Assembly: GCF_002706425.1 (NCBI RefSeq)
Contig: NZ_CP017713.1
Location: forward strand, 1,240,001-1,304,000
Origin: Loigolactobacillus coryniformis subsp. coryniformis KCTC 3167 = DSM 20001
Lineage (GTDB): Bacteria > Bacillota > Bacilli > Lactobacillales > Lactobacillaceae
Direction: 5' to 3'
DNA length: 64,000 nt
The notes under the pieces: model-generated
The model's input: only the letters and a program-made list of their open reading frames with translations
What the model was told of the DNA's origin: nothing
Databases searched by the model: none
Shown here: positions 10,286 through 61,262 of the stretch, piece by piece
Position numbering within the stretch: the stretch's first letter is position 1
Layout of the letters: the number at the start of each line of letters is the position of its first letter
Program-made: the position numbers and the translations under genes

Positions 10286-10302
10286 TATTCTCATAATAAA
10301 TA

Positions 10303-10557
10303 ACGTTGAACAGAAGAGTAAATGGACTTAAATTATCAGAGAGTTTCTGGATGGTGTGAAGAAACAATTGAGTGTATTGAAACACATCTGCGAGTATTGT
10401 ACGCTGAACAAATTAGGTGTACACGGGAAAGCCCGTTACTGCTGTAGTTCATTGAACTACCTGAGGTATTGCTTGTGAAAGTGATACAAATTAGAGGTGG
10501 AATCACGAAATCAATCGTCCTCTTGAAGTTATTTAATAACTTCAAGAGGCTTTTTTA
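10303..10557 (+). promoter_or_regulatory. T-box leader, CAC (histidine) specifier
   Basis: tRNA-sensing leader. Stem I includes GAACAGAAGAGTAA, the AG bulge CAGAGAG and the distal GGATGGTGTGAAG. Base pairing CAGA/TCTG closes the specifier loop, whose 3' strand reads AA-CAC-A. The same alignment in the ileS T-box of this window gives GG-ATC-A, so CAC (His) is the likely codon. The T-box GAGGTGGAATCACG is at 10494-10507, followed by a perfect 14-bp terminator (10519-10549) and six T. The bulge base A after TGG does not pair with the C73 usual in bacterial tRNA-His, which is unexplained. Confidence 0.88.
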
Positions 10558-22645: not shown

Positions 22646-22960
22646 AGCCATGCTTCTTGCGGCATGAACTTAGCCACAAGAATGGTCATTATCCGTAACA
22701 TCAAAGCTAATTAGTGTGTTCTGCTAATTAGCTACCTTAAAAGTGAAGTAGAGCCATGTTTCTTGCGGCACGAACTTTGCCACAAGAATGGTCATCGTCC
22801 GTAACATCAAAGCTAATTAGTGTGTTCTGCTAATTAGTTACCTTAAAAGTGGAGCCATGCTTCTTGCGGTATGAACTTTGCCACAAGAATGGTCATCGTC
22901 CGTAACATCAAAGCTAATTAGTGTACTTTACTAATTTAGCTACCTTAAAAGTGAAGTAGA
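22645..22960 (+). repeat. three tandem copies of a structured leader element before mraY
   Basis: Copies begin with GAGCCATG at 22645, 22751 and 22852 (about 106, 101 and 109 bases). Each has hairpin 1 (TTCTTG-c-GGCA...TGCC-a-CAAGAA), a conserved unpaired block (ATGGTCATCGTCCGTAACATC), hairpin 2 (GCTAATTAG/CTAATTAGC with a loop starting TG) and ends in CTTAAAAGTGAAGTAGA; the copy 2-3 junction has lost AAGTA. The array fills the pbpB-mraY gap except the ribosome binding site. No open reading frame, promoter or T-run terminator is evident inside. The same family occurs before the DUF1831 gene and typA. Confidence 0.85.
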
Positions 22961-22984
22961 ATAAGAATGGGGAGTAAGAGAGTT

Positions 22985-44415: not shown

Positions 44416-44520
44416 AGTAGAGCCATGTTTCTTGCGGCATGATTTTAGCTACAAGAATGGACATCGACCATAACATCGGAAATTTCTGGTACAAAAATTA
44501 TCCACGATTGTGGAGTAGAG
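44416..44520 (+). repeat. single copy of the structured leader element before the DUF1831 gene
   Basis: AGTAGAGCCATG, hairpin 1 (TTCTTG-c-GGC...GC-ta-CAAGAA), the conserved block ATGGACATCGACCATAACATC, a second imperfect hairpin with different arms, CCAC-GATT-GTGG, then AGTAGAGGAG, which doubles as ribosome binding site. It fills the whole gap between the cysteine desulfurase and DUF1831 genes. Confidence 0.75.
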
Positions 44521-44531
44521 GAGTGAGCGGA

Positions 44532-44873
44532 ATGGCATTTGCAGCAACAGCGGCAGTTAAAGGGAGCACAACAACTTACGCGCTTAGCCCTAATGTTAAA
44601 AAATATACATTAAAGGATGTCGGTTTTGTTGAAACGCGTGGTGGTAATTTTCAATTAGAACGACCACTTGATCCTAATTCGCCATACAATCAGGCGTTCA
44701 AGCTAAAAATTACTGTTGCCAAAGATTTAAAGAACCTGAAGATGTCGATTACAACAGCCAATGGGTTACAAGCAGTTGACATTTTTAAACAGCCGGCTAA
44801 AACCGAAGAAATTACGCAATTTAACTTTTTAGTGGACAATCTGATTGACCGTGAGATTTTAATTAAAAAATAA
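44532..44873 (+). CDS. DUF1831 family protein (Lp2179-like)
   Basis: 113-aa protein starting MAFAATAAVKGSTTTYALSP. It matches the DUF1831 family (PF08866), known from a Lactobacillus plantarum crystal structure with a proposed ligand-binding role and no proven function. Its constant place between a cysteine desulfurase and mnmA suggests a part in sulfur transfer or tRNA thiolation. This is inference from context; no cysteine is present, so it cannot itself be a persulfide carrier. Confidence 0.85.
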   Translation: MAFAATAAVKGSTTTYALSPNVKKYTLKDVGFVETRGGNFQLERPLDPNSPYNQAFKLKITVAKDLKNLKMSITTANGLQAVDIFKQPAKTEEITQFNFLVDNLIDREILIKK

Positions 44874-46422: not shown

Positions 46423-47082
46423 GTGACTAAATTATTTTTTGTACGACACGGTAAAACGAAATGGAATTTAGAAGGACGTTATCAAGGCGCTAATGGTGAT
46501 TCACCGTTATTAACTGAAAGTTATACGGAAATCGATGACTTGGCTAATTTTTTACGGCCATTACAGTTTAATCGAATCTATAGCAGTCCGTTAAACCGCG
46601 CTAAAACGACTGCTTTAGCGTTAGAAGATCGGTTACCCGGTAATATTCCGGTTGTGATTGACGAGCGTCTACGCGAGTTTAATCTAGGTAAAATGGAAGG
46701 CATGAAATTCACTGAGGTGGCTAAACGTTATCCGAAAGAACTATATGCATTCCGACACGCACCGGCACAATATGATCCGACTGTGATCAACGGCGAATCC
46801 TTTCCACAGCTGATTGCGCGGATGCAACCAGCAATCAAAGAAATAGTTGCTCAAGACACTGGTAAAGGACAGTACATCATTGTCAGTCATGGGGCTGCGT
46901 TGACCGCACTGATCCAATCATTATTGGGCACACCGATCGCTGATATCCGTAAACGTGGCGGGTTATCAAATACAAATGTGACCACGATTGAAACTACAGA
47001 TAGTGGCGCAACTTATCAATTGATCAAATGGAACGATACTCATTTTCTAAGTAAAACATTAGACGAGACTGATACGATTTAG
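46423..47082 (+). CDS. histidine phosphatase family protein
   Basis: 219-aa phosphoglycerate-mutase-like phosphatase. GTG at 46423 (MTKLFFVRHGKTKWN) has AGAGGA upstream; longer forms begin inside the mnmA terminator. The RHG motif has the catalytic His, and the second His is in IIVSHGAALTAL. A substrate cannot be named; it is too divergent to call a glycolytic mutase. Confidence 0.9.
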   Translation: MTKLFFVRHGKTKWNLEGRYQGANGDSPLLTESYTEIDDLANFLRPLQFNRIYSSPLNRAKTTALALEDRLPGNIPVVIDERLREFNLGKMEGMKFTEVAKRYPKELYAFRHAPAQYDPTVINGESFPQLIARMQPAIKEIVAQDTGKGQYIIVSHGAALTALIQSLLGTPIADIRKRGGLSNTNVTTIETTDSGATYQLIKWNDTHFLSKTLDETDTI

Positions 47083-58871: not shown

Positions 58872-58923
58872 TGGCGTTGGGGCGGATGTTTTCTGAAAAA
58901 AACTGCGCATCAGCAATATTTTC

Positions 58924-58932
58924 TGGTATAAT
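58924..58932 (+). promoter_or_regulatory. promoter of typA
   Basis: TGG-TATAAT, an extended -10 with perfect hexamer; TGCGCA lies 17 bases upstream. Transcription from it would give a leader of about 475 bases containing the repeat array. Confidence 0.7.
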
Positions 58933-58967
58933 ATGCTGTTGAGTGTGAATTTCGCCTGAAATTTATG

Positions 58968-59400
58968 GTTTCGGGCTTGGTTTTAACTAAGCAAATAGCG
59001 CACAGTTAAAGAAGGCCAACCGAAATAACCGGATCTATTAGTGATTTGAGCTAATAAATCATCATTTTTGTGAAGTAGAGCCATGTTTCAACTAGGTGAA
59101 TTGAGCCGTAGTTGAATGGACATCGCCCGAAACATCAAGATTTATTAGTGGTTTGAACTAATAAATCATCATTTTTGTGAAGTAGAGCCATGTTTCAACT
59201 AGGCGAATTGAGCCGTAGTTGAATGGACATCGCCCGAAACATCAAGATTTATTAGTGGTTCGAGCTAATAAATCATCATTTTTGTGAAGTAGAGCCATGT
59301 TTCAACTAGGCGAATTGAGCCGTAGTTGAATGGACATCGCCCGAAACATCAAGATTTATTAGTGGTTCGAGCTAATAAATCATCATTTTTGTGAAGTAGA
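58968..59400 (+). repeat. tandem structured leader elements before typA (three exact 107-bp copies plus a diverged one)
   Basis: GAGCCATG starts at 59078, 59185 and 59292, a period of exactly 107 bases; the copies differ at only a few positions. Each has hairpin 1 (TTCAACTA-GGC...GCC-g-TAGTTGAA), the block ATGGACATCGCCCGAAACATC, hairpin 2 (GATTTATTAG/CTAATAAATC) and TTTTTGTGAAGTAGA. A diverged fourth copy (about 58968-59077) keeps the fold with changed arms: TTAACT/AGTTAA and GATCTATTAG/CTAATAAATC. The array ends 14 bases before typA, leaving only the AAGGA site. There is no coding potential. Confidence 0.88.
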
Positions 59401-59414
59401 AAGGATAGAGTAAA

Positions 59415-61262
59415 GTGAAGCGTAGAGAAGATATTCGCAATATTGCAATTATTGCGCACGTCGATCATGGTAAGACGACCCTAGTTAATGAAATGCTAAA
59501 ACAATCTGATACTTTAGATGAACATATCCATTTAGAGGATCGGGCCATGGATACTAACCCGATTGAAAAAGAACGTGGGATCACGATCTTATCAAAGAAT
59601 ACTGCAGTTGACTATGCAGGTAAGAAAATTAACATTTTGGATACACCAGGCCATGCGGATTTTGGTGGCGAAGTTGAACGAATCATGAAAATGGTTGATG
59701 GTGTTTTGTTAGTCGTAGATGCCTTTGAAGGAACAATGCCACAAACACGGTTTGTTTTGAAAAAAGCCTTGGAACAACATTTAACACCAATCGTCGTGAT
59801 TAATAAAATTGACCGTCCTGGTGCTCGTCCTGAAGAAGTTGTGGATGAAGTTTTGGACTTGTTCATTGAATTAGGTGCCGATGATGACCAATTAGAATTC
59901 CCAGTTGTTTACGCAAGTGCAATTAATGGGACTTCTAGCTTGGAATCAGATCCAGCAGCACAAAAACATACAATGAATCCTTTGTTTGATACAATTATTA
60001 AGACTATTCCAGCACCAATTGACAACTCAGATGAACCATTACAATTCCAAGTTGCCTTGTTGGACTACAATGAATATGTCGGTCGTATCGGTATTGGTCG
60101 TATTTTCCGTGGTAAGATCAAAGTCGGTGATCAAGTTTCCGTTTTGAAACTTGATGGCTCAGCTAAGAACTTCCGCGTAACGAAACTATTTGGTTTCTTC
60201 GGTTTGAAACGAGTTGAGATCAATGAAGCCAAAGCTGGCGATTTGATTGCTGTATCTGGGATGGAAGATATTTTCGTCGGTGAAACAGTGACACCAGTTG
60301 ATCATCAAGAAGCTTTACCAGTCTTGCGGATCGATGAACCAACTTTGCAGATGCAATTTGTTGCTAATGATTCACCATTTGCGGGTCAAGAAGGCGAATT
60401 TGTTACTGCACGCAAATTGGAAGAACGGCTAAAGACACAATTGCATACTGATGTTTCTTTGCGCGTAGAAGATACTGATTCAAGTAGTTCTTGGTTAGTT
60501 TCTGGTCGTGGCGAATTGCATTTGTCGATCTTGGTTGAACAATTGCGTCGTGAAGGCTATGAGTTACAACTCTCACGGCCCCAAGTTATTTACCGGACAG
60601 TTGATGGTGCATTAAGTGAACCATTTGAACAAGTGGTTATCGACACTCCTGAACAATATACTGGTACGATCATTGATTCATTGTCACAACGTAAAGGTGA
60701 AATGCAAAATATGGAAAGCGAAGGCAATGGCCAAACACGCTTGACTTTCATCGCACCTTCACGTGGTTTGATTGGTTATTCTTCAGAATTCCTTTCACAA
60801 ACCGCTGGTTACGGGATTATGAACCATACTTTCTCCAAATATATGCCAGTGATCAAAAACTGGGAACCAGGTCGTCGTAATGGCGCGCTGGTTTCAATTA
60901 ATGCTGGTAAGACAACCACTTATAGCCTAGAAGGTATCGAAAGCCGCGGCCAATTATTCTTGGGTGCTGCCGTTGATATTTATGAAGGCGAAATTGTTGG
61001 TCAAAGTAATCGTGAAACTGATATTTCGGTTAACGTTACTAAGGGTAAGAAACAGACTAACACGCGTGCTTCTGGTAAGGATCACTCTGCAGCTATTGCA
61101 GTCCCACGTAAGATGTCACTTGAAGAGTCAATTGAATTCTTAAACGAGGATGAATACTGTGAAGTTACACCTAAGAGCATTCGTCTACGTAAAAAGATTT
61201 TGAATACCAGCGAACGCGAACGTGTTTCGAAGCGGCGCAAAATTGCTGCTAAAAAAGCCTAA
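59415..61262 (+). CDS. typA: ribosome-associated GTPase TypA/BipA
   Basis: 615-aa translational GTPase related to EF-G, involved in 50S assembly and growth at low temperature or under stress. GTG start 59415 after AAGGA. G1 is [10 protein letters not shown]3 [15 protein letters not shown]4 [10 protein letters not shown]. The C-terminal BipA-specific domain contains [20 protein letters not shown]. It has a dedicated promoter, the repeat-filled leader and its own terminator. Confidence 0.97.

Follow-up and report, generated by a model that had tools for sequence, protein, structure and literature searches.

Folded repeat units of Loigolactobacillus, single or in tandem arrays, in front of ribosome-binding sites

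The tandem units in front of typA in Loigolactobacillus coryniformis are members of a non-coding interspersed repeat family of the genus Loigolactobacillus. In our reading, to which we give a probability of about 0.6, this is a dispersing, structure-constrained repeat that was inserted or selectively retained on the 5′ side of ribosome-binding sites and locally duplicated there. The window from which the analysis started comprises 64,000 nucleotides, bases 1240001-1304000 of the 2.95 Mb single-contig genome of L. coryniformis.

Anatomy, fold and abundance of the units

The units are about 95-114 nt long and consist, in this order, of hairpin 1, a single-stranded block, hairpin 2 and a tail. 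Each starts with GCCATG and continues into hairpin 1, where CCA/TGG is followed by TTCTTG/CAAGAA, TTCAACT/AGTTGAA or other arms and then by GGC/GCC. The conserved single-stranded block is CATCGyCCGnAACATC (pattern CATCG.CC..AACATC). The arms of hairpin 2 are variable, either long (TTATTAG..CTAATAA) or short (ATTTTTG..CAAAAAT), and the tail is GTGnnnTAGA/G.

The typA array (58974-59400, plus strand) comprises four units that follow one another without spacers, as the initial annotation had described. Its 5′-most unit is the diverged one that had been reported (58974..59079, 106 bp, 34.8 bits), and units 2 to 4 are 107 bp each (59080..59186, 79.1 bits; 59187..59293, 76 bits; 59294..59400, 76 bits). 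Calling these three copies exact was slightly overstated: units 3 and 4 are identical, and unit 2 differs from both at 3 positions. Unit 4 ends with GTGAAGTAGA at the Shine-Dalgarno sequence AAAGGA (59400..59405, plus strand), which was found in the other seven species too. It precedes a GTG-started gene of 615 amino acids (59415..61262, plus strand), which we take to be typA, following the initial annotation. The typA promoter is probably located at 58924..58932 (plus strand), where an extended −10-like element, TGGTATAAT, was recognized by eye in the sequence; a consensus promoter scan did not list it. Between this likely promoter and unit 1, a terminator-like hairpin is followed by TTGGTTTTAA (window 58954-58976).

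The related copies reported at mraY and DUF1831 are also present, both on the plus strand. The mraY array (22647-22960) has three units. The first (22647..22752, 106 bp) is preceded by a TAGA that shares bases with the upstream gene's stop codon. In the second (22753..22853, 101 bp) only GTGGA is left of the 3′ tail, and the third (22854..22960) has 107 bp. The mraY Shine-Dalgarno sequence GGGGAG (22969..22974, plus strand) lies about 9 nt past the array and does not abut it. In front of the DUF1831 gene (44532..44870, plus strand, Pfam PF08866) there is a single unit with the short type of hairpin 2 (44422..44519), and the Shine-Dalgarno sequence AGGAG (44519..44523, plus strand) is immediately 3′ of it.

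The two-hairpin fold being kept by compensatory change is strongly supported, as the initial annotation had suspected from hairpin arms that change on both sides together. In the own genome, 96.2% of the alignment cells were paired (139 matches, 129 distinct rows). Double changes occurred at 20 of 22 pairs, in 374 cells compared with 93.4 after shuffling and at most 44 when the pairing was slid. The best 150 of 173 matches in other genomes (106 distinct rows) gave 97.4% paired cells and double changes at 21 of 22 pairs, in 400 cells compared with 98.0 shuffled and at most 53 slid. These alignments were fitted to a covariance model and thus favor the structure, although the slid controls were much lower. 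In both sets, compensatory changes exceeded the shuffled and the slid controls. The third pairing that the initial annotation had considered, in which ATGTT/AACAT would be replaced by GGTT/AACC, received no support from covariation: there were 5 double-change cells against 3.7 shuffled in the own genome and 1 against 3.9 in the other genomes.

Two further ideas about the tail were dropped. A complementarity of ACCTT to AAGG is missing from the typA units when inspected by eye. Each of the six letters of GTG-nnn-TAG (e.g. 59391-59399) is present in at least 94% of the own-genome units. Reading this motif as a one-codon ORF was rejected; no upstream Shine-Dalgarno sequence was seen and the spacing is lost in genome G005.

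The family is apparently unnamed, and its units had no Rfam match. At gathering thresholds the whole window gave only a T-box leader (RF00230, 122.8 bits, window 10297-10525), which is unrelated to the units. The region 58900-59450 had no match at E ≤ 5. When eight other loci were searched at E ≤ 0.1, the sole matches were a lysine riboswitch and a tRNA, both outside the units. A description of the family was not found in the open-licence literature searched.

The copy number of the family is far beyond chance. Allowing at most 3 mismatches, the core pattern GAATGGNCATCGNCCNNAACATC had 61 + 45 = 106 sites in the own genome, compared with 1 for the reversed pattern. A covariance model (R1) built from 13 sequences, with 150 candidates scored, gave at least 146 matches at E ≤ 0.1 in the same genome, at 90 loci; the eight copies counted initially were far too few. 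With the same tolerance, genome G005 had 1 site of the core pattern and the remaining six Loigolactobacillus genomes had 13-58 each, whereas 52 genomes outside the genus had 0-3 each, like the reversed control. The covariance model matched all eight Loigolactobacillus genomes 20-141 times each at E ≤ 0.01. The 102 matches of genome G005 at this threshold were weaker (best E 1.9e-9). The taxonomy comprises eight named Loigolactobacillus species.

Beyond the genus, few genomes matched. In a sample of 151 Lactobacillaceae genomes, searched with stricter filters and with 26 candidates per genome scored, ten had matches at E ≤ 0.001; six of these were Loigolactobacillus and four were others with 1-5 copies. 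The exact core pattern occurred in 22 stretches across a collection of 84,980 species: 16 in Loigolactobacillus, one in Pediococcus parvulus and five in unrelated organisms outside Lactobacillaceae (L038, L039, L049, L050 and L051). The P. parvulus stretch contained one unit (L036, 3553-3658, minus strand, 95.2 bits) in a non-leader setting, possibly obtained by horizontal transfer. No unit was matched in plasmids and phages.

Placement in mRNA leaders and possible effects

We examined the flanking genes of 84 of the 90 own-genome loci. A locus was counted as lying at a start if its 3′ end was followed, 5-25 nt on, by a start codon that had a Shine-Dalgarno-like core and opened an ORF of 60 codons or longer. 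In sense orientation, 66 of the 84 loci were so placed, at observed distances of 7-24 nt past the last unit. By the same criterion none of the 84 was placed in antisense, and 700 of 20,000 random positions in the same loci qualified. The initial description of a structured, tandemly arrayed element in leaders, beside the ribosome-binding site, is supported. Splitting the loci by eye, with the flanks already seen, gave 72 leader-type loci, of which 66 lie at starts, and 12 class-B (MITE-like) loci, none of which does.

Among the 66 leaders, which had been chosen for lying at starts, the distance between the element and the nearest upstream ORF, a proxy for the upstream gene, was at least 80 nt in 32; had placement been uniform, about 3.4 of these 32 would be expected so close to the start. 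The 3′ tail GNGnnnTAGR was present in 57 of the 66. Their 5′ starts were degraded in 27, complete and preceded by a unit tail in the left flank in 25, and complete without such a tail in 14.

In the other genomes the analysis covered 72 loci, most of them taken for having the best scores and hence not a random sample, with the search window extended by 8 nt upstream. Starts followed in 6 of 7 loci of L. binensis (typA included), 5 of 7 of L. zhaoyuanensis, 2 of 7 of L. jiayinensis and 16 of 27 of genome G005. Among the best-scoring copies of L. backii (0/7), L. iwatensis (0/7) and genome G001 (0/4), and among six loci outside the genus, no start followed, and none of the 72 loci was placed in antisense. 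The species counts, which run from 6/7 down to 0/7, implied that the leader habit belongs to part of the genus. Scatter without regard to gene starts had been named as the mark of a simple mobile repeat. It is contradicted in the own genome by the 66 of 84 loci at starts, whereas L. backii, L. iwatensis and G001 do show it in the best-scoring copies that were examined (0/18).

Two loci deserve mention on their own. In L. jiayinensis, at one of the loci not counted as lying at a start (L069, 1372-1957), a unit array is followed by AGGAGG and, 13 nt on, by an ATG that opens an ORF of just 24 codons. The sequence downstream resembles release factor 1 (45%), and the gene may be prfB with its programmed frameshift. 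In genome G005 (L195, 1778-1960, minus strand), a lysine riboswitch is located upstream of the element, and a 481-codon ORF starts 9 nt past it.

Sense-only placement at Shine-Dalgarno sequences, together with a fold kept through compensatory change, is what a cis-regulatory RNA regulon would lead us to expect. In such a regulon the single-stranded block would bind a genus-specific protein or ligand and tune the translation of many genes together, and arrays would raise the cooperativity. The downstream genes do not fit this explanation well. Of the 66 proteins encoded downstream, 60 were scanned with Pfam and 58 matched; their functions are mixed, many of them housekeeping, with no pathway common to them. 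Going by the Pfam matches, they presumably include release factor 1, Ffh, RNase III, Era, RbfA and YidC.

The balance of G-U and A-C at paired positions, with each pair of a locus counted a single time, bears on the same question. In leader copies, the G-U:A-C ratio was 103:32 in the own genome and 24:11 in the other genomes; in non-leader copies it was 10:8 and 5:8 (pooled Fisher P = 0.005). An excess confined to leaders suggests selection on the sense RNA and thus speaks for a regulon. However, when loop-closing pairs were left out, it fell to 60:32 and 12:11 in leaders, with 5:5 and 3:7 in non-leader copies (P = 0.08). We regard this as modest support for a role of the sense RNA in leader copies. 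A block similar to the proposed binding site is also found in the MITE-like copies, which speaks against a regulatory role. Taken together with the species comparison below, the regulon appears a doubtful explanation.

We also predicted the openness of the Shine-Dalgarno sequence in the 66 leaders. It was 0.483 with the native last unit, 0.406 when that unit was dinucleotide-shuffled (40 shuffles per leader) and 0.579 when only its last 10 nt were kept. Native openness exceeded the shuffled value in 46 of the 66 leaders (Wilcoxon P = 8e-5). Being above the shuffled and below the element-free value, it indicates that the unit folds on itself more than its composition predicts and is not free of cost. 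The idea that the element is a lid on the Shine-Dalgarno sequence was rejected, as openness exceeds that of shuffled units, though it is lower than without the element. The element may affect translation or the stability of the mRNA.

Empty sites, arrays and signs of dispersal

Five loci (typA, mraY, DUF1831, ricT and yabA) were compared across eight species. In the seven species other than L. coryniformis, the only clear unit at these loci was that of typA in L. binensis. The mraY, DUF1831, ricT and yabA sites are thus filled in L. coryniformis alone. The typA site is filled in L. coryniformis and L. binensis and empty in four species; by eye, it carries a decayed unit in L. zhaoyuanensis and L. 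jiayinensis. Unit presence is lineage-specific at the five compared loci. A regulon would hardly be expected to have four of five compared leaders filled in one species only and its typA copy decayed in two relatives.

The junctions were examined where relatives lack the unit. At typA, genome G001 has ATGCG|AAAGGA where L. coryniformis has TTTCG|array|AAAGGA. At DUF1831, L. binensis has AAACA|AGGAGTG and L. coryniformis has AAACA|GTAGAGCC...GTGGAGTAG|AGGAGTG. The DUF1831 leaders of L. backii and L. iwatensis hold what looks by eye like a diverged relative, which the model did not score at E ≤ 0.01. At ricT and yabA, the unit directly precedes AAAGGTAGGGG and AGGTGA, respectively. The Shine-Dalgarno sequence is thus directly 3′ of the tail, with counterparts in relatives, at four of the five loci (AAAGGA, AGGAGTG, AAAGGTAGGGG and AGGTGA), the exception being mraY with its gap of about 9 nt. 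Insertion in L. coryniformis and loss elsewhere are not distinguishable at every locus. In a tblastn comparison of the genes downstream of the 72 other-genome loci with those of the 66 leaders, the same gene lay directly behind the element in three cases: typA in L. binensis, the gene at 1705123 in L. jiayinensis and that at 2356855 in L. zhaoyuanensis. In the yabA and ricT leaders of L. jiayinensis and L. zhaoyuanensis (L246, L247), we saw by eye palindromic MITE-like inserts near the starts, which contain no unit.

The 90 own-genome loci include 32 arrays of 2-5 units, and among the best-scored matches (at least 146) the gap between neighbors was zero in 54 of 56 pairs. The lowest-scoring unit of an array was the 5′-most in 25 cases, the 3′-most in 4 and a middle one in 1, with 2 ties, as scored by a model that was made from canonical units. 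Hairpin arms and tails are locus-specific and common to the units of one array, which implied that arrays grow or homogenize locally.

Several observations point to dispersal of copies: modules nested in units, copies inside palindromes, dispersed tail subfamilies and a constant 3′ end beside a variable 5′ end. A strict pattern found four copies of module M1, which is nested in the hairpin-1 loop. Module M2 (about 120 bp, CTRTCGCTCG...CCAAGTCG) is nested in the conserved block at CA/TG. By a strict pattern it has five copies (L082, L002, L091, L170 and L017), one of them inverted (89044); others were recognized by eye in L162, L163 and L164, and a second inverted copy was likewise recognized by eye near 2380985. 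The tail AGATAG occurs at eight dispersed loci; seven of these were parsed, and six carry the block CACGA. Units with the tail AAGTAG have the block CCGTA in 12 of 16 cases.

At the 12 class-B loci (L104, L089, L152 and nine others), all away from starts, the unit was seen by eye inside a larger imperfect palindrome, either GTGTGACATAAGGC...GCCTTATGTCACAC or a second type. Inverted ends flank these 12 copies by eye, and the longest exact inverted matches are 6-10 nt, some of them off the ends. The flank of L104 matches the Latilactobacillus curvatus plasmid NZ_CP031004.1 at 46841-46936 (L243, 3001-3120) over 95 nt with 87.5% identity. The plasmid carries the palindrome without the unit (TTCAAA|AGCTGACC, compared with CTCAAA|unit|AGCTGGGC in L. 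coryniformis). The difference may reflect insertion of the unit or its loss from the plasmid copy. The flank of the second palindrome type had no match in plasmids or phages.

These palindromes and their inverted ends, and the occurrence of M2 in both orientations, would suit a MITE or recombination unit that acts purely as DNA. Its target would resemble a Shine-Dalgarno sequence and set both position and orientation, and the RNA fold would have no role. Consistent with this, leader units are directly followed by AAAGG, AGGAG or AGGTG, and the unit in the palindrome by AGCTG. However, no terminal inverted repeats and no clear target-site duplications were seen on the leader units, the G-U excess in leaders argues for a constraint at the RNA level, and the sequence shared within each array means that local duplication matters too. 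We therefore consider such a DNA unit unlikely.

Still less probable, and largely refuted, is an element of the REP kind, with conserved GTAG or GGAG next to a bulged hairpin and a RAYT (Y1 HUH) transposase as its mobilizer. One of these tetranucleotides often immediately precedes hairpin 1; they are also part of the tail or the Shine-Dalgarno sequence. Against such an element, neighboring units of the own genome were never oppositely oriented among the matches listed, and Y1_Tnp (PF01797) had no match in the L. coryniformis genome, so that no mobilizer was found in the transposase family searched. Among eight Loigolactobacillus genomes, Y1_Tnp was found only in L. binensis (1) and genome G005 (2, one with internal stops). 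Direct repeats of at least 10 nt flanked 7 of 27 loci in genome G005, compared with 4% of cross-locus pairs, and may be remnants of a preceding unit. As the long repeats look like such remnants, a duplication of the Shine-Dalgarno sequence as a target-site duplication was rejected there.

The constant 3′ end, the frayed 5′ end, the sense-only placement and the predominance of G-U over A-C in leaders could also indicate a selfish element of mRNA leaders, which would use its folded sense RNA to move and would insert precisely on the 5′ side of ribosome-binding sites. We consider this quite unlikely. If it were true, the element would spare host genes and colonize operons of essential genes, and with gene-side duplication each array would be an age-ordered record.

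The initial annotation had offered two alternatives, a cis-acting RNA used in arrays like tandem riboswitches and a spreading RNA-encoding repeat. The second fits better, in view of the empty orthologous sites, the dispersed subfamilies, the nested inserts, the palindrome copies and the lack of a functional theme. In the dispersing repeat that we prefer, copies would spread by a mobilizer or by recombination, and either insert immediately before ribosome-binding sites or be kept at such places, where local duplication would add new units on the gene side. Each unit would fold on itself in the mRNA and leave the Shine-Dalgarno sequence fairly open, and this self-folding may be why the element is tolerated within operons of essential genes.

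Relation to known repeats and leader RNAs

Tandem riboswitches and T-box leaders are structured leader RNAs that can be arranged in tandem. The Loigolactobacillus unit differs from them in having no Rfam match and no common pathway, and in being species-specific at the compared loci. REP/BIME elements with RAYT have a high copy number, a hairpin and a GTAG or GGAG tetranucleotide alongside. The unit shares the first two features and often has one of the tetranucleotides before it, whereas L. coryniformis has no Y1 transposase match and the orientation of units to genes is uniform at leaders. As in mobile repeats, there are both filled and empty orthologous sites (five loci in eight species).

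Bacterial MITEs are described as small non-autonomous repeats with inverted repeats (PMC10969869; PMC3049150). The class-B copies resemble them; the leader units differ in that no terminal inverted repeats were seen on them. The TAACTGA direct repeats of marine Beggiatoaceae are start-codon heptamers that overlap the expected ribosome-binding site; they have no particular predicted structure, and only about 10% of the regions also have a Shine-Dalgarno sequence (PMC4679880). The heptamer differs from the Loigolactobacillus unit in its lack of a particular structure and in its few Shine-Dalgarno sequences.

BOX elements of Streptococcus pneumoniae are interspersed and built of boxA, tandem boxB and boxC; they are predicted to form stem-loops if transcribed, sometimes lie in 5′ leaders and are inferred to be mobile (PMC3049150). 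Compared by architecture and placement only, both families are Firmicute interspersed repeats that have predicted stem-loops, have a modular build with a tandemly variable part, occur in leaders and are inferred to be mobile. However, Loigolactobacillus repeats whole units head-to-tail instead of the boxA-boxB(n)-boxC arrangement. Pneumococcal repeats are reported to be overrepresented between convergent genes (PMC3049150). Such regions are among those in which an insertion costs little and small repeats of bacteria would be expected. Most examined L. coryniformis loci are instead sense-oriented at Shine-Dalgarno sequences. A sense-oriented family at the ribosome-binding sites of genes such as those named above would amount to a natural experiment on the load of structured RNA that a translation start tolerates. 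It would also show how leaders acquire RNA modules, and it may point to an insertion mechanism that recognizes the Shine-Dalgarno sequence. We class the units as a new family in the broad group of small interspersed repeats of bacteria, one whose placement follows an unusual rule, and the BOX elements and TAACTGA repeats are its nearest known counterparts.
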